IMG/VR virus record: IMGVR_UViG_3300027801_000204
Coordinates: 1 to 20,634 of that record
Reading direction: 5' to 3' (one strand)
Length of the DNA stretch: 20,634 bases
Origin: a virus
Shown here: in pieces, positions 1,746-19,234 of the stretch
Position numbering within the stretch: the first letter of the stretch is position 1
How the letters are laid out: each line of letters starts with the position of its first letter
Program-made: the position numbers and the translations under genes
The notes under the pieces: model-generated
Told to the model about the DNA's origin: nothing
Seen by the model: the letters and a program-made list of their open reading frames with translations, nothing else
Database searches by the model: none

Positions 1746-2606
1746 CTAGCCCATTTGAGTGGGACGAAAACCTGGGTTAAATGAAGACTGAAAGCCTTTG
1801 TTCTTCTTATTTTTCAAATCGTTAATAGATGGAACCATTGGGCTCACTCCTGTCCTGACATCGTTTGGTCTTTGCATAGAAGCAACTAGCTTAGAAACGG
1901 GTTGCTCAAAAGGATTCACCACACTTGATTTGTCTCCAAAGTTAAAAACTGAAGTTGTGCCTCCAGCGACCTCCTTGTATCCAGCATCACCTTTGTTTAT
2001 GTAATCGTCGTTATTAAATGATCGAGACGGATCAACCTGCTCATCCAAGCCCTCAGAGTTAGTGTCTGTGTAAGCAGGTGCGGACTCTTCAGTCCCAGTT
2101 AATTGATCAAAGTTTTTAGTCATCATGTTATCAATAAAGTTGCTACGAAAAGGGTTTGGAGTTTCATCCTTGTCCTCATCAGGCTTAACCACTTCAGCGT
2201 CACCATCAACACGCTTCCTGTTCTTCTCGTTCTCTTTAGCTTGAAACACCCTTTCTTGACCTATGTTAGCGAAAGATTTCTGCCTATTGTTTATGTTGCT
2301 AGATAAATCAATACCGTTAGCATGGCCATCCTTAACGAGGGCCAATGCGGCTTTGAAGTCTCCGGCCTTCCTTGCTTTTCTAAACGCCTTGCGCCCAATA
2401 GCATGTAGTTGCCTTTTACTAGTAAGGTCATTAAGGTCATCTTGTCTTTTGTCGCCAAGAAACCTATCATTCTTAAATGCTTTGGTTTTAGTTTCCTGCG
2501 CTTTCACTTCTTTATCGCGAGTCTTCTGATATTTCGCCTTAGATTCCTTTATCTGGCGATCAGCTGCTGTTCTCCCTTCGGAGTCTCTAAATGGTTGCTT
2601 TTTCAT
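1746..2606 (-). CDS. Highly charged, low-complexity protein, candidate internal virion protein
   Basis: This gene encodes 286 aa. The N-terminal third (about residues 1-80) is strongly basic, with many K and R. The middle and C-terminal parts (about 130-286) are rich in D, N, S, G and P and look disordered. No catalytic motif, membrane segment or signal peptide is visible, and I recognise no family. The start ATG at 2606 follows the adaptor stop (2612) by only 5 nt, in the context TAAATAATATG, which implies translational coupling. A basic, flexible protein next to neck genes could contact packaged DNA or line the portal channel, but that is inference from composition and place. Start and frame are well supported. 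Confidence 0.75.
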   Translation of the reverse strand: MKKQPFRDSEGRTAADRQIKESKAKYQKTRDKEVKAQETKTKAFKNDRFLGDKRQDDLNDLTSKRQLHAIGRKAFRKARKAGDFKAALALVKDGHANGIDLSSNINNRQKSFANIGQERVFQAKENEKNRKRVDGDAEVVKPDEDKDETPNPFRSNFIDNMMTKNFDQLTGTEESAPAYTDTNSEGLDEQVDPSRSFNNDDYINKGDAGYKEVAGGTTSVFNFGDKSSVVNPFEQPVSKLVASMQRPNDVRTGVSPMVPSINDLKNKKNKGFQSSFNPGFRPTQMG

Positions 2607-7279: not shown

Positions 7280-9217
7280 TTAGGGTAAGGTTAATCCTGT
7301 TGCTGTTTCCCAGAGGTTTTTGAGTGCTAGGGTGAAGTCATCACTATCAGCTAGTGTCATGCCTGTTCCTGCAAACCACGCACCAAATTGGTCGTCAGTG
7401 AAACCTACGGGCGAGTCATTCACATTAACCGCCATTGTGTAAAAGTTCACAGTAGGTGTTGCGCCGCTAGCAGTGTAACTTTGGGAGACGAGGCTGGATG
7501 TTGACGATGAGTCTCGTTTTGAGATGAACGCATCGCCTGATAAATACGACACAACTAAAATACCCTCAAGCCCTGAGCTACCATCGTTGATCGTATCGCC
7601 ACCATTGATGGCATACAGACCACCACCGCTGGAGGTATTAAACCTGCATTGATTACTTCCCTCACGCGATGCAATTATGTTTTGACTAGCTCCTAGTTCT
7701 GTTCGTAGTAGTCCGCCCAAAATCACCGAGTCAGTAGTGACTCCGATTGCCGCTGGGTCAACTCCCACATCAAAATAACCAGTCGAGCCATCACCCTCTA
7801 CATATCCAGCCGAGTGAGTCACGCCACCATTAAACGTGCCAGTGGCAAGCGTAATCATGTCGATAGCATTTGCCGCTTCCACCGCCCAGATAGGTAGATA
7901 CATGCGCTTGAGTGACGTGTAGTAACCGTCTGATTTAGCCGCCTTGTAGAATGTGTTTAGTGCAGTTTCTTGAGTAGCTGACACTGTAGCTCCCGCCGTG
8001 CGAACATCTGCTATGTATGCCACCGCGTCAGTGTCTGTCCCGTAGTTAGGAAAAGCTGAGAAATCCGCCTCTACCACTGTCAGCCCTGTGAAGACACTAG
8101 CCTGAGTGTCGGCGGTGGTGATCATTGTGTTGATGTCTGAGATGAAATCTGCAACTGGTGTGCCTGATCCTGCCCCGCCGTAAGTCCACATGGTTACAGA
8201 CACAAACTCACCGTCAACAATCACCCCTGCTGGGTTGCCTGAGTCACCGCTTATTATATTTTCATGGAAAATGAGCCTGTCTAAGTCAGTTGGAGTCATG
8301 AAGTTACCGCCGCCTGTCCAGTCTATAATCAGGGCTTTTTCTTCCTGATCAAGTCCAATCGCTCCCGGTCTGTTGCTGCTATTCTCTACAAGATAATCTT
8401 CGTAGTCGGACGGCATTAGCTTACATGGTGTAATGCTAGATGGCAATGCTGAGTCTAGCACAGCCACTCTCAAGTCAGGGTAGTAAGGAGAATAGTCGGG
8501 ATGGTTCACCACTCCTGTGATGGTGCGCGTGAGGACAGTATTGTCATTAGCAACAAACCTCACGGTGTCGCCAATGTAAAGCGGGTAGTGTGACGCCATA
8601 AGCAGATGCTGTGCTGTGATAAGCGTTCCTGCTCTCTTGCTGCCACCTCTGCTATTCCAAGGAGAGGCGCAAGTGAGGTCCACATCGTCACACCATAGAT
8701 TAGTATTGCGAACGTAGGTAGATGTCACGTGATTCTGAGTGCTGTAAATGCCACCATTAGTAGCCATAGACATAGTGTCATCTATACGGCTGTCTATCTC
8801 GTTTGATACGTGTTCAGCGAGTGATCCGACTACGGCATTAGCATAGGATTCAGTATCTCCCTGAGTCTGATCTGCTAGGTTTAGGTCGATGCCGATTGTT
8901 ACACCGTTTTTAACTAGGACTCTGCATTGACCAGAGGCAACCCTAGTTATCACGCCATCTGATGCAATAGTTGCAATATCTGTATTTAGGCTTTCAAACG
9001 TGGCTTGAGTGCCAGTTACTAAAACGCTCCCGCCATTGTAGAATGTGCCACCGTTGTAAACGTCAAACACTGCATCATCATTAGTCACCGTAGTGCTAGT
9101 TGATCCGGTTAAGACAATCACCTCTGGACTATATGACACCGACAAGTTTGGCTCGTCCGCCAATACTGGCGGACGAAATGTGATTGCTGATGCGTTGTGT
9201 GTGAGAGTGAGTGCCAT
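7280..9217 (-). CDS. Tail adhesin/fibre with an embedded trypsin-like serine protease and a C-terminal lectin-like region
   Basis: This 645-aa protein looks modular. Residues about 30-112 resemble a bacterial Ig-like (BIG_2) domain (DIATIASDGVITRVASG). Residues about 190-350 match a chymotrypsin-fold peptidase: H210 in LITAQHLLMASH, D248 in YPDLRVAVL and S326 in ISGDSGNPAG stand in the order and spacing of a catalytic triad. Residues about 394-475 resemble a connector common in environmental phage tail proteins (DAVAYIADV, then FYKAAKSDGYYTSLKR). Residues about 470-645 look like a concanavalin/LamG-type lectin region (YVEGDGSTGYFDVG). No signal peptide is seen, as expected for a virion protein. 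It starts 4 nt after the fibre stop. Likely role: a receptor-binding protein that binds and cuts a surface protein, or cleaves itself during maturation. Domain calls are from motifs, not a search. Confidence 0.75.
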   Translation of the reverse strand: MALTLTHNASAITFRPPVLADEPNLSVSYSPEVIVLTGSTSTTVTNDDAVFDVYNGGTFYNGGSVLVTGTQATFESLNTDIATIASDGVITRVASGQCRVLVKNGVTIGIDLNLADQTQGDTESYANAVVGSLAEHVSNEIDSRIDDTMSMATNGGIYSTQNHVTSTYVRNTNLWCDDVDLTCASPWNSRGGSKRAGTLITAQHLLMASHYPLYIGDTVRFVANDNTVLTRTITGVVNHPDYSPYYPDLRVAVLDSALPSSITPCKLMPSDYEDYLVENSSNRPGAIGLDQEEKALIIDWTGGGNFMTPTDLDRLIFHENIISGDSGNPAGVIVDGEFVSVTMWTYGGAGSGTPVADFISDINTMITTADTQASVFTGLTVVEADFSAFPNYGTDTDAVAYIADVRTAGATVSATQETALNTFYKAAKSDGYYTSLKRMYLPIWAVEAANAIDMITLATGTFNGGVTHSAGYVEGDGSTGYFDVGVDPAAIGVTTDSVILGGLLRTELGASQNIIASREGSNQCRFNTSSGGGLYAINGGDTINDGSSGLEGILVVSYLSGDAFISKRDSSSTSSLVSQSYTASGATPTVNFYTMAVNVNDSPVGFTDDQFGAWFAGTGMTLADSDDFTLALKNLWETATGLTLP

Positions 9218-9221
9218 TATG

Positions 9222-10313
9222 TTATGATATTGATCCTAATGAGAGTGATTTGATTGTCCCTGCGTCATTTACGTATAAAGTCATCGCATCCCCGTTGCGC
9301 TGTATAGTCATCATTTCCCGACCTAAAGTTCCGTCTGCCTCACTACCCGCCGTTGCTCCGCCGTCTGTTGGTGCTGTGGCTGTGTCTTTAATTGTGTAAG
9401 CTACCTGACCATCACCTTGTGTTCTCAAAGATGTTGCTCTAGTTGTCGCGCCAGACCAGTGTCCGATTTCTTGAGTGTTGTTCACTGTGGTTTTAGTAAA
9501 ACTACCACTTGCTACTGAGTTAGCCCCGCTCGCTACTGAGCCACTACCACTAGCTACTGAGGCACTACCACTAGCTACTGAGCCACCACCACTAGCTACT
9601 GAGGAATCACCACTTGCTGTTGAGTAAGCACCGCTTGCTACTGAGGAAAAACTGCTTGCTGTTGAGTTAGCCCCGCTTGCTACTGAGGACTCACCGCTCG
9701 CTACTGAGCCACTACCACTAGCTATTGAGTAAGTACCACTTGCTATTGAGTAAGCACCACTTGCTGTTGAATTATCACCACTAGCGTCTGAATTTAACCC
9801 AATGGCTAGTGAATCCGTTCCAGTGGCTGTAGAGAGCGCCGCCGCCCTCATTACCACCGCTTTACCACCAGTGGTCACACCATCACCAATGACAGGGATA
9901 TTGCCAACCTCGCCAAGTGTGCCTTCGGCTGGAACTATGCCAGTCATGTCTGCGAGCTCCATATTCACCACAACGTTTCCAGTCGGGTCGTAAATGTTAT
10001 TTCCAAGCGGTTCGAATAGTCCTGATTTGACTTCTAGCAATGAGTCGAGAGCATACCAAACACCTCCGACCGCTCCAGCCGTGGCCACTTTGTAGCGCGC
10101 GCCGTCTGCTAGACTGGTAGGATCAACGTCAAATGCTCCAGCTACCACGTTCACATCTGTGTAAATGTATTTATTGTCCCCTTCATCATTAAAAAATGAA
10201 AGTAATAGAGCTGTTTGCTCGTCATCCCATCTAGACCCTAGCGCCTCATCCATTGTGAGTGTGCCGTTATTGCCTTTTGCTACCAAGGCTTCATAGTTTG
10301 CTGAATTGCTCAT
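9222..10313 (-). CDS. Tail fibre with YadA-like head repeats
   Basis: This gene encodes 363 aa. Residues 1-43 are a short anchor-like segment, also encoded separately just upstream (10319-10450). Residues 44-120 form a second region containing the motif GGVWYALDS. Residues 161-272 are sixteen tandem heptads of the form S(V/T/I)ASGxx, the pattern of YadA-type left-handed beta-roll adhesins, here with a strict 7-residue period. Residues 278-363 (EIGHWSGATTRATS, then GGATAGSEADGTLGREM) resemble a C-terminal module shared by many environmental phage fibres. Probably a trimeric fibre that contacts the host or carries the next gene's product. It starts 5 nt after the mini-gene stop; leader GATTAAACACT has no Shine-Dalgarno. 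Confidence 0.75.
   Translation of the reverse strand: MSNSANYEALVAKGNNGTLTMDEALGSRWDDEQTALLLSFFNDEGDNKYIYTDVNVVAGAFDVDPTSLADGARYKVATAGAVGGVWYALDSLLEVKSGLFEPLGNNIYDPTGNVVVNMELADMTGIVPAEGTLGEVGNIPVIGDGVTTGGKAVVMRAAALSTATGTDSLAIGLNSDASGDNSTASGAYSIASGTYSIASGSGSVASGESSVASGANSTASSFSSVASGAYSTASGDSSVASGGGSVASGSASVASGSGSVASGANSVASGSFTKTTVNNTQEIGHWSGATTRATSLRTQGDGQVAYTIKDTATAPTDGGATAGSEADGTLGREMMTIQRNGDAMTLYVNDAGTIKSLSLGSIS
9498..9833 (-). repeat. Sixteen tandem 21-bp units encoding YadA-like heptads
   Basis: Within the fibre gene the DNA repeats with a 21-bp period. On the plus strand, units such as GCTACTGAGCCACTACCACT recur with scattered substitutions. Each unit encodes one heptad (SVASGSG, SVASGAN, STASGAY and so on). 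The reading frame is unbroken, and the units nearest the fibre C-terminus are the most alike, as expected for recent unequal crossover or slippage. Confidence 0.9.
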
Positions 10314-10318
10314 AGTGT

Positions 10319-10450
10319 TTAATCTTTAAAGAATGAAAGGAGAAGAGCTGTTTGTTCAGGTGTCCATCTAGACCCTAGCGCTTCATCCATTGTAAGGGTG
10401 CCGGCTACGCCCTTAGCTACTAGGGCTTCAAAAGTTGCTGAGTTGCTCAT
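10319..10450 (-). CDS. 43-aa protein duplicating the fibre N-terminus
   Basis: The frame runs from ATG 10450 to TAA, giving 43 aa that start MSNSATFEALVAKG and end LLLSFFKD. By my hand alignment it matches residues 1-43 of the following fibre at 36 of 43 positions without gaps. At DNA level 101 of 129 bases match; of 18 changed codons, 11 are synonymous. That pattern suggests both copies were kept under protein-level selection rather than one being a decaying remnant. The stop lies 5 nt before the fibre ATG. The gene is the first cistron after the capsid terminator. It may be a free copy of the virion-anchoring peptide, or the head of an older fibre gene whose body was lost by module exchange. 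Too short for most gene finders. Confidence 0.65.
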   Translation of the reverse strand: MSNSATFEALVAKGVAGTLTMDEALGSRWTPEQTALLLSFFKD

Positions 10451-10453
10451 AAT

Positions 10454-10481
10454 ATTATAATTTGGTTATCTGATTGTAGAA
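10454..10481 (-). promoter_or_regulatory. Weak promoter candidate for the fibre/lysis unit
   Basis: A perfect TATAAT (minus strand 10459-10454) lies three bases before ATG 10450, downstream of the capsid terminator. The hexamer 17 nt further upstream, TTTCTA, is a poor -35 match. If used, the transcript would begin at about the start codon and be nearly leaderless. Read-through of the terminator could supply the transcript instead, and the hexamer may simply be an A/T-rich translation leader. Confidence 0.25.
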
Positions 10482-10500: not shown

Positions 10501-10560
10501 AAAAAAGAAAAAAATAGCCAACCCCGAATACAAAACAGAAGAAAAATATCAGGGCTGGCT
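10501..10560 (-). terminator. Intrinsic terminator after the major capsid gene
   Basis: On the minus strand AGCCAGCCCT (10560-10551) pairs with GGGGTTGGCT (10525-10516) in a ten-base-pair stem with two G-T wobbles and a 25-nt loop. It is followed by ATTTTTTTCTTTTTT (10515-10501). The hairpin begins 9 nt after the capsid stop codon. The loop is long for a textbook terminator, but stem plus U-tract and the position are convincing. Confidence 0.8.
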
Positions 10561-10569
10561 AAAAATGGA

Positions 10570-11727
10570 TTAACAAGCAGTTAGTCCAAGGTCGTTAGGG
10601 CAACGTAGGTGACGAATAGTAATGCCAAACTCAGTGTGACGAGGTCTGACAGCTGATCCGAGTGTTGCACGGAAGAATCCGTTCTTACCGTCAGGGTTAT
10701 CTGTGCGGTGAGCAATGTTCTTCCATTGGATTTCTCCAATATAGTTCTGAGCTGTGAAGCTGGCTTTATCCACATTAGAGATAGATCCAGGAACAAGACA
10801 GTCATAAACGCTCTTAACAAAGATCATAGTGTCTTCGTGGTCAGCGGCTACATAGTCAGGGTTCTCATCAGCAGCTGTTCCAGCGCCGGTGTCCACCCAA
10901 GGTTGACTTCTCACCCACTGAGTTCCACCAGAATCCCAGTCGTAACGTCTAGGGGTGTCGTCAATCATGTGAACAAAACCATTGTAAGTATGAGTGTAGC
11001 CCATACCAAGTAGTAGTTTGTCAGCTTGTGAAGACTCTCTGAAGTCAGTGCGGGTAGCAGCATCTTCCTTGATAAGCGCTCTTGATGTTTCCATTGAGCA
11101 AACTAGGGCAAAGATAGGCTGACCGTTAAGCATTGTAGCTGCGTCTTGACGGGCTCCATTACGCTGAAGGTAAGCATAGAAGTGATCTAGTGCTTTATTA
11201 GTCAGGATAGAAGTGGCCGGCTCAAGAGGAAACACATCTCCAGCAGCTTGGTTAGTTTCTGGAAGAGAAGCGTTGAGAACAACCTTGCGGTTGGACACCT
11301 TAGCATACCAGTCACGCTTGTAGTCAATCCAAATGTTACGGATGTTTTGTCCGAGCATGTCAACAACGTTGCGCATTTGCTCTTTCATTCTCCACTTAGC
11401 ACGTAGGTCATCAATACAGAAATCGAGAGTTTCGATAGCTGTGCTTTCCAAACTAACGGTTTGGCGAGTTTGATTAAACTGAATGCTAGTAGTTGGCGGA
11501 GTACAGATGTTGGTAGATCCATCAGCTGTAGCGTGGGCTTGCCAGGTTTGACCAGCACTCGGAAGAGTTCTTTCAAACGTGACGGCTTCAAACGAGTGAC
11601 CGATTTCGTCAGGCCACTGAGTTTTGTTAACCATGGAGATCCACGGTGAGCTTGGGTAGATCTTTTTGTCGATCTCTAGAGCTAGGGCTCCGGTAATTTC
11701 TTGTAGTTGATTTTCGATGTTAGGCAT
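10570..11727 (-). CDS. Major capsid protein
   Basis: This 385-aa protein should form the icosahedral shell. It follows the scaffold gene, as major capsid genes of HK97-fold phages do. The N-terminal region (residues about 15-70, with KKIYPSSPWISMVNKTQWPD then VTFERTLPS) resembles capsid proteins of environmental short-tailed phages. The C-terminal third is beta-rich (KNGFFRATLGSAVRP, then FGITIRHLRCP). There is no protease domain or signal peptide. Size fits an HK97-fold subunit without a long delta domain, consistent with the separate scaffold. The gene stands alone between two terminators with its own promoter candidate and a structured 200-nt leader, an arrangement suited to very high expression. 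ATG 11727 has leader CTATATAATAAT without Shine-Dalgarno. Confidence 0.8.
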   Translation of the reverse strand: MPNIENQLQEITGALALEIDKKIYPSSPWISMVNKTQWPDEIGHSFEAVTFERTLPSAGQTWQAHATADGSTNICTPPTTSIQFNQTRQTVSLESTAIETLDFCIDDLRAKWRMKEQMRNVVDMLGQNIRNIWIDYKRDWYAKVSNRKVVLNASLPETNQAAGDVFPLEPATSILTNKALDHFYAYLQRNGARQDAATMLNGQPIFALVCSMETSRALIKEDAATRTDFRESSQADKLLLGMGYTHTYNGFVHMIDDTPRRYDWDSGGTQWVRSQPWVDTGAGTAADENPDYVAADHEDTMIFVKSVYDCLVPGSISNVDKASFTAQNYIGEIQWKNIAHRTDNPDGKNGFFRATLGSAVRPRHTEFGITIRHLRCPNDLGLTAC

Positions 11728-11972: not shown

Positions 11973-12002
11973 AAAAAGGGCCAGAGGAAGCCCCTAGCCC
12001 TT
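11973..12002 (-). terminator. Intrinsic terminator after the scaffold gene
   Basis: On the minus strand AAGGGCTAG (12002-11994) pairs with CTGGCCCTT (11984-11976) over nine base pairs with one T-G wobble and a 9-nt loop, then runs into a T-tract (CTTTTT, ending at 11973). It starts 23 nt after the scaffold stop. Stem, loop size and U-tract are all standard. Confidence 0.75.
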
Positions 12003-12025: not shown

Positions 12026-13237
12026 CTAACTAATTCCATCAATAATTCGATCCATGGCGTCTGAGGGCGATTCTCCGCCCCTAAGGTAGCCTTGCGGGCT
12101 ATCACCGGATCTAGGAGCAGGAGCAGAAGCGCCTCTAGGGTTGATGCTATCATCAATAACATCTCTAGCAGACAAAGCGGCCAGCTTCTTAGTCATCTCC
12201 CTATACTTGGTGATCATAGGAGCCAAAGAAACAGCTGACATGGCAGCAAAGGCCTTTTGATCAACAGTCATACCCTCAAAATCAACAGCAGATGCTTGAT
12301 CCTTAAGAGACTTAGATAACGGGCTCTCAGTTCCATCGTCAGCAATAAATAGAGGGATTTGATCTTGGTAGGTGTCAAAGGTGGTAGATACAGACTTCTT
12401 GTAAGCCACATCATTCCTCTCACGCTCTTGTGCTGACAACGCTGCACTAGATGACCTAGACTCCTCAAGAAGAGTAGTAGCATTTTGCTCAATCTGAGAC
12501 TCACGCTGGTAAAGAACAGTCATGTCATCAGCCATTTTGATTATGGAAGCGTATGATCTGTCATCCAGGTCAGCCTTAAGGGCATCAATGGCAGAAGATT
12601 GCTCAGAGTAGTCCCGGGATGAAACAGCGCTAAGAATGTCACCAGCATCAACACCAGTTTTCTCAGCAAGAGTTTTAGCTAGTGATGCAATGTCATCATA
12701 AGGAGCCAGTATGTTGTTTTTATAATCAGCTGTTTCGCGGTAATCCACGGCAGACACTTTATCAGACAACTCCTTATTCTGTTTGATCATCTCATCATAA
12801 GAATCAAGTTTGGCTTTAATCTTCTCATACTCAGGAGACGACTCAATGTCACCAGACTCATAAGACTTAATCTTCCTCTCAAGCTCCTCAATGCGAGTGT
12901 TACTCTCTTTAAGTTTGCCCCTAACCTTCTTGAAGCCCTCGCCGGGGTGAGCAGCTTTACTCATCTCCTCGATCTCGCGTTCTGTCTGCTTCTCAAACTC
13001 CTCATCCGGGTTAGCATTGGGATCAACCTCCACCACTTCCTCCTCTTTCTTATCAAAAGGGCTTTCAAATGGCTTGTCTACAGGATCTGCCGGAGCTGGT
13101 GTGTCTGTAGGAGTTGCTAGATCGGCCGGTGTGTCTGTGGTTGAAATGTCGTCCACCTCTGCCATGCTGTCTAGCGCGGAATCCAAGGGGGAATCTGATC
13201 CACCTCTTAACTGTTGTATTGTGCTTTGTTCGCTCAT
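12026..13237 (-). CDS. Scaffolding protein
   Basis: This 403-aa protein should guide capsid assembly and then leave or be degraded. Residues 1-80 are acidic and low in complexity (D, P, T, A; TPTDTPAPADPVDKP). Residues about 80-180 are strongly charged and coiled-coil-like (KLKESNTRIEELERKIKSYE). The middle is helical, and the C-terminus (about 370-403, NPRGASAPAPRSGDSPQGYL) is flexible. Composition, helix content and position between portal and major capsid genes are the hallmarks of caudoviral scaffolds. No protease motif is seen. ATG 13237 has the leader CCAGATAATAAT. A terminator follows the stop. Family identity is by composition and synteny. Confidence 0.75.
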   Translation of the reverse strand: MSEQSTIQQLRGGSDSPLDSALDSMAEVDDISTTDTPADLATPTDTPAPADPVDKPFESPFDKKEEEVVEVDPNANPDEEFEKQTEREIEEMSKAAHPGEGFKKVRGKLKESNTRIEELERKIKSYESGDIESSPEYEKIKAKLDSYDEMIKQNKELSDKVSAVDYRETADYKNNILAPYDDIASLAKTLAEKTGVDAGDILSAVSSRDYSEQSSAIDALKADLDDRSYASIIKMADDMTVLYQRESQIEQNATTLLEESRSSSAALSAQERERNDVAYKKSVSTTFDTYQDQIPLFIADDGTESPLSKSLKDQASAVDFEGMTVDQKAFAAMSAVSLAPMITKYREMTKKLAALSARDVIDDSINPRGASAPAPRSGDSPQGYLRGGESPSDAMDRIIDGIS

Positions 13238-13539: not shown

Positions 13540-13902
13540 TTAGCCCAAAATCCAATCTAGTGCAAAAGTGTCACTACTAGACGCCACCCAGTTATCAATA
13601 GATCCGTCTGGCTTCACAATCACCATTTGATTCTGGTAGTCTGGTGAAACACCCTCCAGCTGCATCCTATCTTTTACAGACTGAGGCAATGAGGACATCT
13701 TAGGGACTATATTAGCCGGAACCTTAGAGGGAACTTGTTTAAATGCATACATGCCTGTGCCGTTCCAACCTTCACGCTGGACATAGCCGCCATCTCTCAT
13801 GTGTTCAATCGCCTCACCAAAGGTGTGGGAAATGGTTTGCTTTAATGGCTTCGCAGGTGTTGCTGTTCCTACTGTATCTGGATTGTAATTATCGTTCTTC
13901 AT
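13540..13902 (-). CDS. tad2: Tad2-like (DUF2829) protein, candidate anti-Thoeris signal sponge
   Basis: This gene encodes 120 aa. Residues 27-120 carry the DUF2829 pattern in order: TFGEAIEHMRDGG (27-39), then REGWNGTGMY (43-52) and, near the end, NQMVIVKPDGSIDNWVASSSD (91-111, W105) and FALDWILG (113-120). DUF2829 is the family of Tad2, a phage protein known to sequester the cyclic ADP-ribose-type messenger of Thoeris immunity; some homologues bind other cyclic nucleotides. A polar 26-aa extension precedes the domain. The gene begins 7 nt after the portal stop and has the leader ATAACAAAACA, so it is part of the head-gene operon. Domain assignment is confident from motifs. Anti-defence activity is inferred, since many DUF2829 proteins are untested. 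Confidence 0.85.
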   Translation of the reverse strand: MKNDNYNPDTVGTATPAKPLKQTISHTFGEAIEHMRDGGYVQREGWNGTGMYAFKQVPSKVPANIVPKMSSLPQSVKDRMQLEGVSPDYQNQMVIVKPDGSIDNWVASSSDTFALDWILG

Positions 13903-17401: not shown

Positions 17402-19234
17402 TTATGTAAAGTAAAGATTTGAGCCAGATAGTATATCATGACCATTAACTGCTTTTTGCCATGATGGCGAGCTTCTTTTTTGTATATTTTCAACCTCAGC
17501 ATCAAAAATAAGACCATTAAGTATTGCTGTTTCTAGCAAAATGAACAAACAATCCGCGTGATCCGGGCTATATCCCTCTCTCTTCTTCATGTCACTTTTG
17601 CTCTCAATGCACACCTTAACTCCGGCGCCACCTCTGGTTTGGGTGTTATAACGTCTGGCACACATTTGCGACACCATCTTGTCAGTTAATCCTCTAATCC
17701 TGCCCTCTCTTATCAATCCCTTGGCCTTCACCCATAATTCACTCACCCTGTTACGGTAAACATCATGGGATTTCCTTGTGTCTGAAGCTCCAGCTTGTCG
17801 GGAAGAAGCGGCTCCACCAAAATGAATGTCCTTACATAACGATGACCACTCAGCAACCACAACATCACGAAATGCTAAGCCGGTGCCGGTGGCGTCATAA
17901 CCAAAGTGAGAAGGTTCAACTGAAAACTTGGAGCAATTAGCCCTAAGTTGATCAACCATCTTATGTGATCTAGGCCTCATATCAGATAAGTCATCCTCAA
18001 GAGCCTTACACCACTTAATCTCCAAATATGTTTTGCCCTTAGTATTTGTCACTACCTCACCAAGAACTTGCGGGAATTCATCACCCCCCTGAGTGAAGGC
18101 CGGATCAGCAGCTGAAACACTCTTCCTGCTCACCACTTCACCGTCTCTCTCTGCACTATATGGCTTGTTACAGTAGTTTATAATTATCTCACTCTCAGTG
18201 TAAATAGTTTCCGTGGATGCCTCTCTATACCAAAAAGCCTTATACTGCTTGTAAAACATGAGGGATTTCTCTCCCCACCTTGATTTAGCCTTAATAATGG
18301 CGTCTCTAGAAGGATACCAGGAGTATAAATCTTCACCCCTAAGAATGTTTGGGTTTCTCTCTGCATCAAACCTGTGCACCACGCCACGCTCAGTGAGCCA
18401 AGTGTCGTCACTCTCATCAACGCTATTCCATCCATCCAATGGTTCACACATGTCACCAAATGCATCAGTCATAAGGTTTGGGTTTCCCATGGCCACCATC
18501 TTAAATTCCTGCTTATCCTTATTGGTTCCGTTTACCATGTTACCAAAGGCAGCCTCAACAATCATCTTTGGAAGTTGTGGTAGCTCATCAGCAATCAAAT
18601 ACATTCTCTCCTGTTTAATACCAATAAGAGTGTCGTAAGCGTCTTTCTCAGAGCCAGAGCCAGCAGCTACAATTTGTATGCCCACACTATCTGACTTATT
18701 CCCTGACTTGTCCCAACCTCTCACCATGCACTTAGAGTAAACCATGTCACCAAACTGAGCCATTTTAGGTAGGGCGTGCCAATATTGAGATAAGCACTTC
18801 CACACTCGAAGCTGAGCTCCTTTAATAGATGTAGATGTGATGAGGATAAGAGATTCATTTGGAGCGCAAAGAAACTGAACAATAGCATATATGGAAGCTG
18901 CCATACTCTTCCCGGAAGAAGCACATCCAGCTAAAGACACCACGTCATTCTCAATCATACTCCTAAGCATGCGGTCGGTCCACTCGTTCCATATCACTCT
19001 CTGAGCATTGGCGCCATCCTCACCATCATTCCAATTCCAAAGTATGTCGACTATGTTACAGAAATGATACCACTTATTCACGCGCTCCCCTTCATCCCGG
19101 ATAGTGTTGTAATTATCTCTCCTGTCTTCATGAGAGCACTCAAACTCCTTCTCAGGACGAGTGTCATACATATATGCGAAGATCTCGACAGCTAGCCTGT
19201 GAGTGTCGCCAAATTCCATTCCATAAGCTACCAT
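17402..19234 (-). CDS. terL: Terminase large subunit (packaging ATPase and nuclease)
   Basis: This 610-aa motor protein pumps DNA into the prohead and cuts the concatemer. The ATPase half shows a Walker A GCASSGKS (103-110), a Walker B YLIADE (212-217, with catalytic E217) and a coupling motif MVAMGN (246-251). The RNase H-like nuclease half shows acidic residues D377 in SAADPAF, D447 in GYDATGTG and D558 or D561 in YSPDHADC. All elements are present in order, so the enzyme looks intact. Length is at the upper end of the usual 450-650 aa. No small terminase subunit is recognised upstream. ATG 19234 follows the leader AAATGAAATT, 26 nt after the preceding stop. Confidence 0.93.
   Translation of the reverse strand: MVAYGMEFGDTHRLAVEIFAYMYDTRPEKEFECSHEDRRDNYNTIRDEGERVNKWYHFCNIVDILWNWNDGEDGANAQRVIWNEWTDRMLRSMIENDVVSLAGCASSGKSMAASIYAIVQFLCAPNESLILITSTSIKGAQLRVWKCLSQYWHALPKMAQFGDMVYSKCMVRGWDKSGNKSDSVGIQIVAAGSGSEKDAYDTLIGIKQERMYLIADELPQLPKMIVEAAFGNMVNGTNKDKQEFKMVAMGNPNLMTDAFGDMCEPLDGWNSVDESDDTWLTERGVVHRFDAERNPNILRGEDLYSWYPSRDAIIKAKSRWGEKSLMFYKQYKAFWYREASTETIYTESEIIINYCNKPYSAERDGEVVSRKSVSAADPAFTQGGDEFPQVLGEVVTNTKGKTYLEIKWCKALEDDLSDMRPRSHKMVDQLRANCSKFSVEPSHFGYDATGTGLAFRDVVVAEWSSLCKDIHFGGAASSRQAGASDTRKSHDVYRNRVSELWVKAKGLIREGRIRGLTDKMVSQMCARRYNTQTRGGAGVKVCIESKSDMKKREGYSPDHADCLFILLETAILNGLIFDAEVENIQKRSSPSWQKAVNGHDILSGSNLYFT

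Follow-up and report, generated by a model that had tools for sequence, protein, structure and literature searches.

The short reading frame and its genomic setting

The window, i.e., the whole analysed stretch of 20,634 nucleotides from an uncultivated phage (virus record IMGVR_UViG_3300027801_000204), carries on its minus strand a fibre-like gene that is directly preceded by a short ORF of 43 codons. In the direction of transcription, the features of this region are:

10570..11727, minus strand: inferred major capsid protein, 385 aa, assigned from gene order and size only
10515..10561, minus strand: terminator-like hairpin and T-run separating the short ORF from the inferred capsid gene (-22.8 kcal/mol, z -6.6)
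10451..10468, minus strand: AT-rich leader of the short ORF, TAACCAAATTATAATATT, resembling the leaders of 10570-11727 and 12026-13237
10319..10450, minus strand: short ORF of 43 aa, stand-alone copy of the fibre N-terminus (blastp to the fibre E 8e-22; best AF2 pLDDT 87.4)
10314..10318, minus strand: 5-nt gap from the TAA of the short ORF to the fibre ATG (TAA-ACACT-ATG); the frames differ, 137 mod 3 = 2
10185..10313, minus strand: fibre codons 1-43, second repeat copy (codon alignment; tandem period 137 nt)
9222..10313, minus strand: fibre-like protein, 363 aa, with residues 1-43 homologous to the short ORF, YadA-head repeats at about 161-290 and a short beta C-terminal part (PF05658, PDB matches, low-confidence model)
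7280..9217, minus strand: 645-aa protein encoded after the fibre, weakly similar to Ig-like (PF22359, 0.0022) and trypsin-like (PF00089, 0.0034) families, both matches below cut-off

The short ORF has the sequence MSNSATFEALVAKGVAGTLTMDEALGSRWTPEQTALLLSFFKD and runs from position 10450 down to 10319, from ATG to TAA. Its description in the initial annotation as a stand-alone copy of the fibre N-terminus was confirmed: the blastp E value of 8e-22 rules out chance similarity, and a repeat finder reported two head-to-tail copies of 137 nt (10182-10318 and 10319-10455, 77%). The counts given there were reproduced exactly by codon alignment, with identical residues at 36 of 43 positions and with 18 of the 43 codons differing, 11 of them synonymously and seven nonsynonymously. 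At the nucleotide level, 28 of 129 positions differ, distributed as 6, 6 and 16 over codon positions 1, 2 and 3. A repeat pair of a diversity-generating retroelement was rejected because the differences are not adenine-specific (the fibre copy has A at 13 of the 28 sites but not at the other 15). Since 137 is not divisible by three and the short ORF stops at once, its product would be a free peptide and not a fusion. A two-headed fibre made by frameshifting is likewise unlikely, as the frames are offset, the fibre frame is open for only four codons upstream of its ATG and inspection by eye revealed no convincing slippery site. Short ORFs of this type are missed by gene finders with length limits.

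The fibre gene matches the Pfam family YadA_head (PF05658, 2.7e-17, above cut-off), and its best matches in the PDB are heads of trimeric autotransporters, led by 7o23 (1.5e-29). The protein thus contains the head repeats of trimeric autotransporter (YadA) adhesins. Their C-terminal membrane anchor domain was not found in a whole-protein Pfam scan to E 1, and NCBIfam matches were partial and far below cut-off. The same Pfam scan returned YadA_head and LbR_Ice_bind only and no T4gp10-like domain. The YadA-head part is encoded by twelve overlapping register copies of a repeat with a 21-nt period (9466-9833), a tract that is a likely site of length variation and has the same length in both known contigs.

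The inferred capsid gene comes after a large terminase-like gene and then putative portal and scaffold genes. In tblastn, the terminase-like gene (17402-19234) resembles annotated terminases weakly (E 3e-3 and 7e-3); the capsid, portal and scaffold candidates gave no usable match in family or solved-structure libraries. In phage phi29, the p8.5 gene follows the capsid gene. On the other side of the fibre, residues 132-338 of the 645-aa protein share 26% identity with a protein of a Manatee Spring podovirus, and beyond this gene lie small ORFs and then an endolysin- or tail-lysozyme-like gene. Gene order allows both a head fibre, which would adjoin the inferred capsid gene, and a tail fibre; the latter is as possible because the genes after the fibre have the appearance of a block for host recognition and lysis. 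Within the structural module, beside the inferred portal gene, the gene at 13540-13902 (minus strand) codes for a protein of 120 aa that has a domain like Thoeris anti-defence 2 (PF11195, 6.7e-15).

Expression signals and relatives

In the window, the leaders of most minus-strand genes are rich in AT or A and lack a Shine-Dalgarno-like motif, and the host may therefore belong to a group with initiation independent of such motifs. When leaders were compared, the pair formed by the short ORF and the inferred capsid gene (10570-11727) tied for second among 210 pairs, and the start context of the short ORF is like that of the inferred capsid and scaffold genes. The leaders of the short ORF and the fibre are only weakly alike, with 23 of the 210 pairs scoring at least as high, so that the comparison falls short of demonstrating a clean tandem duplication with the leader included. 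The fibre start has the poorer context and the stronger local structure (-5.5 versus -3.0 kcal/mol for the short ORF).

The hairpin at 10515..10561 comprises 13 pairs and is the only strong site of its kind on either strand of the window, with one hit in 20 Markov controls; it was absent from a second terminator scan, whose loop limit was 8. The short ORF is thus the first ORF behind the only strong terminator-like hairpin of the window. A weaker terminator-like hairpin with five T residues lies before the inferred capsid gene (11976-12002, minus strand, z -3.3). The capsid gene is accordingly flanked on both sides by such hairpins, as if it formed its own transcription unit, and the gap before it measures 298 nt. 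A promoter scan of the window yielded 24 sites where 25.5 were expected, and Rfam gave no match. Many neighbouring genes are less than 10 nt apart or overlap.

Scans of viral and genome contigs for relatives yielded two other contigs, of which only one, L001, covers the region of the short ORF. L001 (10,845 bases) is 99.95% identical to the window and represents the same species. None of its five differences falls into the short ORF or the fibre gene; the two that fall in genes are silent and one lies in the region upstream of the short ORF. Queried by tblastn with the capsid candidate, the fibre and the portal candidate, a phage collection gave no matches. Two apparent relatives were discarded: MT838946.1, with E 0.3, is a chance match inside an ORF judged glycosyltransferase-like by eye, and at E <= 1e-5 the 645-aa protein is all that the Manatee Spring podovirus (L009) has in common with the window, its annotated capsid protein having no match. 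The second contig, L004, covers only the terminase end (83%). It carries the only diverged terminase relative (L004:1264-2640, plus strand), which is interrupted close to its nucleotide-binding loop; the insertion is an intein (Pfam Intein_splicing, 1.2e-8, just below cut-off). The terminase of the window is free of an intein. Antisense to the middle of the L004 intein lies an ORF of 253 aa with an HNH domain (1796-2557, minus strand; HNH_3, 1.7e-10), and it seems that the homing nuclease is encoded antisense.

Protein-level constraint and predicted structure of the head

dN and dS between the two copies were computed with three estimators. The estimates were 0.144 and 0.841 (NG86), 0.152 and 0.691 (YN00), and 0.133 and 0.847 (LWL85), i.e., dN of 0.13-0.15, dS of 0.69-0.85 and ratios between 0.16 and 0.22. 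In simulations, a neutral short copy was combined with a constrained fibre and the share of substitutions on the short branch was varied. When at least half of the substitutions fell on the short branch, seven or fewer changed residues were obtained at P <= 0.009; with a quarter on this branch and an omega of 0.05 on the fibre, P rose to 0.12-0.19. For a neutral short ORF, the simulated probability of containing no stop was 0.37-0.75, and the open frame by itself is therefore weak evidence. The initial annotation had stated that the pattern is not simple decay, which the simulation of neutral drift supports. Its further statement that the ORF is apparently under selection is also supported: the low dN/dS and the rejection of a neutral short copy at half or more of the changes speak for it, while the quarter-share case leaves the support short of proof. 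Taken at the level of codons, the pair shows good signs of constraint on the protein, and the pairwise ratio may have arisen while both heads belonged to full fibres.

Residue changes cluster strongly. In codon pairs 15-16 and 30-31, 11 of 12 nucleotides are changed, and equal clustering occurred in none of 20,000 permutations. The remaining residue changes are two at positions 6-7 (one of them F/Y) and one at position 42. Large hydrophobic positions are largely spared, 12 of 14 being the same in both heads. The best AF2 model of the short peptide (pLDDT 87.4, pTM 0.62) is compact, with helices at residues 3-16, 21-24 and 31-41; its input consisted of the two copies in the window only, and the other four models reached pLDDT 72-75. 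On this model, the clustered changes sit where helix 1 ends and helix 3 begins. Five of the seven changed residues lie within the predicted helix limits, but 15, 16 and 31 are at helix ends. In terms of the model, the substitution pattern is that of a fold that is kept and turns that are free. Modelled at full length, the fibre gives a poor result (mean pLDDT 38), yet shows the same three helices at its N-terminus, with confidence dropping below 50 from residue 43. As this collapse begins where the short ORF ends, the latter spans just the predicted head unit. Because 12 of the 14 large hydrophobic positions are kept and the differences lie mainly at helix ends, the short peptide probably folds like the fibre head.

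The short peptide had no match in PHROGs, Pfam or NCBIfam. Its predicted fold gave none at E <= 0.001 among the 46 BFVD matches listed and nothing usable in the PDB (best Z 2.6 among 20 chains aligned). This lack of fold matches is no evidence of a new fold. Neither family nor fold searches produced a match linking the head to known capsid- or tail-binding domains. The model of the short peptide and the comparisons of starts and copies support the short ORF as a real duplicated head that is domain-sized, self-contained and equipped with its own start context.

Possible roles of the stand-alone head

We tentatively favour the view that the short ORF is a translated, head-only paralogue of the presumed attachment domain of the fibre, whose product would occupy the same site on the virion. 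It could have originated when some 137 nt were duplicated head to tail or when two fibre heads were joined. Out of frame with the fibre, it would be made as a free three-helix peptide of 43 residues that binds the fibre's own site on capsid or tail. There it could fill sites left empty by the fibre or compete with the fibre, and it is proposed, as the initial annotation had also suggested, that the number of fibres per particle would be set in this way. A stricter version, in which a dedicated anchor peptide is expressed upstream of the fibre from a start resembling that of the capsid gene and sets the fibre number per virion by competing for or filling sites, appears rather doubtful to us.

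An explanation that fits almost as well as the head-only paralogue is that the short ORF is the retained head of a displaced fibre. The homologous heads would have diverged on two fibres of different phages before recombination placed a new fibre behind the old head and the old body was lost. We regard this as a real possibility, though a somewhat less probable one. The short ORF may then be young and either lack a role of its own or serve as a recombination docking place for new fibre bodies. Low dN/dS would follow without any function of the short form because each head would have been under the constraint of a complete fibre at that time, and the position directly behind the inferred capsid gene, with a capsid-like leader, is where an older fibre is expected. 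There is also a published parallel in the truncated second receptor-binding protein (RBP) of phage KpV767, discussed below. What argues against a displaced fibre is the precision of the arrangement: the short ORF ends exactly at the predicted domain end and no more than 5 nt from the next start, which is tidier than a random truncation, and no second fibre body or fragment lies between the two heads. As to an intact version of the lost RBP in related phages, the scans offered only the same-species contig for comparison.

Alternatively, the short ORF could act as a translation leader that delivers ribosomes to the fibre start 5 nt past its stop, the peptide itself being unimportant. The spacing TAA-ACACT-ATG, the poorer and more structured fibre start and the position of the short ORF as first behind the hairpin agree with this. 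However, such spacing is ordinary in this phage, because many neighbouring genes are similarly close or overlap, and a leader leaves unexplained why amino acids are conserved amid many silent changes; we consider this explanation unlikely. Least probable of all, and in our estimate very improbable, is a neutral tandem duplicate that is being lost, with the silent excess stemming mostly from the constrained fibre branch. Only the simulation that assigned a quarter of the substitutions to the short branch accommodates it, whereas an equal share, the natural expectation for equally old copies, does not, and the sparing of hydrophobic positions also speaks against it.

The idea of a retained head or docking site is already in print for Klebsiella phages (PMC6872550). 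In that study, truncated RBPs of Klebsiella podoviruses are proposed to serve as a 'temporal docking site', and KpV767, from group C of the KP32virus phages, carries a truncated second RBP of 69 aa (AOZ65520.1). As in our case, a separate short ORF consisting of little but an N-terminal segment, putatively for attachment here, resides beside an intact RBP gene (PMC6872550). The Klebsiella gene is what is left of a second RBP that is assumed to dock on a T4gp10-like domain of the first (PMC6872550), whereas the short ORF described here is a copy of the head of the very fibre that it precedes, and the Pfam scan of this fibre gave no gp10-like match. Note that our search was a Pfam scan to E 1 and the Klebsiella study used the more sensitive HHpred, so that a diverged gp10-like domain in the fibre could have been missed (PMC6872550).

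Other comparisons concern fold and architecture. Like the predicted short peptide, the decoration protein pb10 of T5 has a small, all-helical, self-folding N-terminal domain, which in pb10 binds the virion and is joined to a displayed C-terminal domain; it differs in having five helices (construct 1-77) and in being part of one protein (PMC5292684). Our searches found no sequence or fold link between the two, and the capsid binding of the pb10 domain renders a cap plausible without implying a relationship (PMC5292684). The p8.5 protein of phi29 forms a trimeric fibre attached to the head, though as a supercoiled helix-turn-helix fibre and not with YadA-head repeats as found here, and there is no family match (PMC11476376). 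A marine phage tail fibre resembles our fibre in pairing a YadA-like adhesive portion with a conserved N-terminus; its N-terminus is of the T7-like PF03906 type, which is unmatched in our fibre, and a stand-alone copy is not mentioned in the accessible text (PMC3909814). Among the open-licence papers listed in our literature searches, we found no report of a stand-alone duplicate of a fibre head beside the same fibre. Should the free head occupy fibre sites, the phage would have an easy genetic route to adjust how many fibres it carries, and display work would gain a handle. A remnant would instead mark the domain boundary at which one fibre was exchanged for another.
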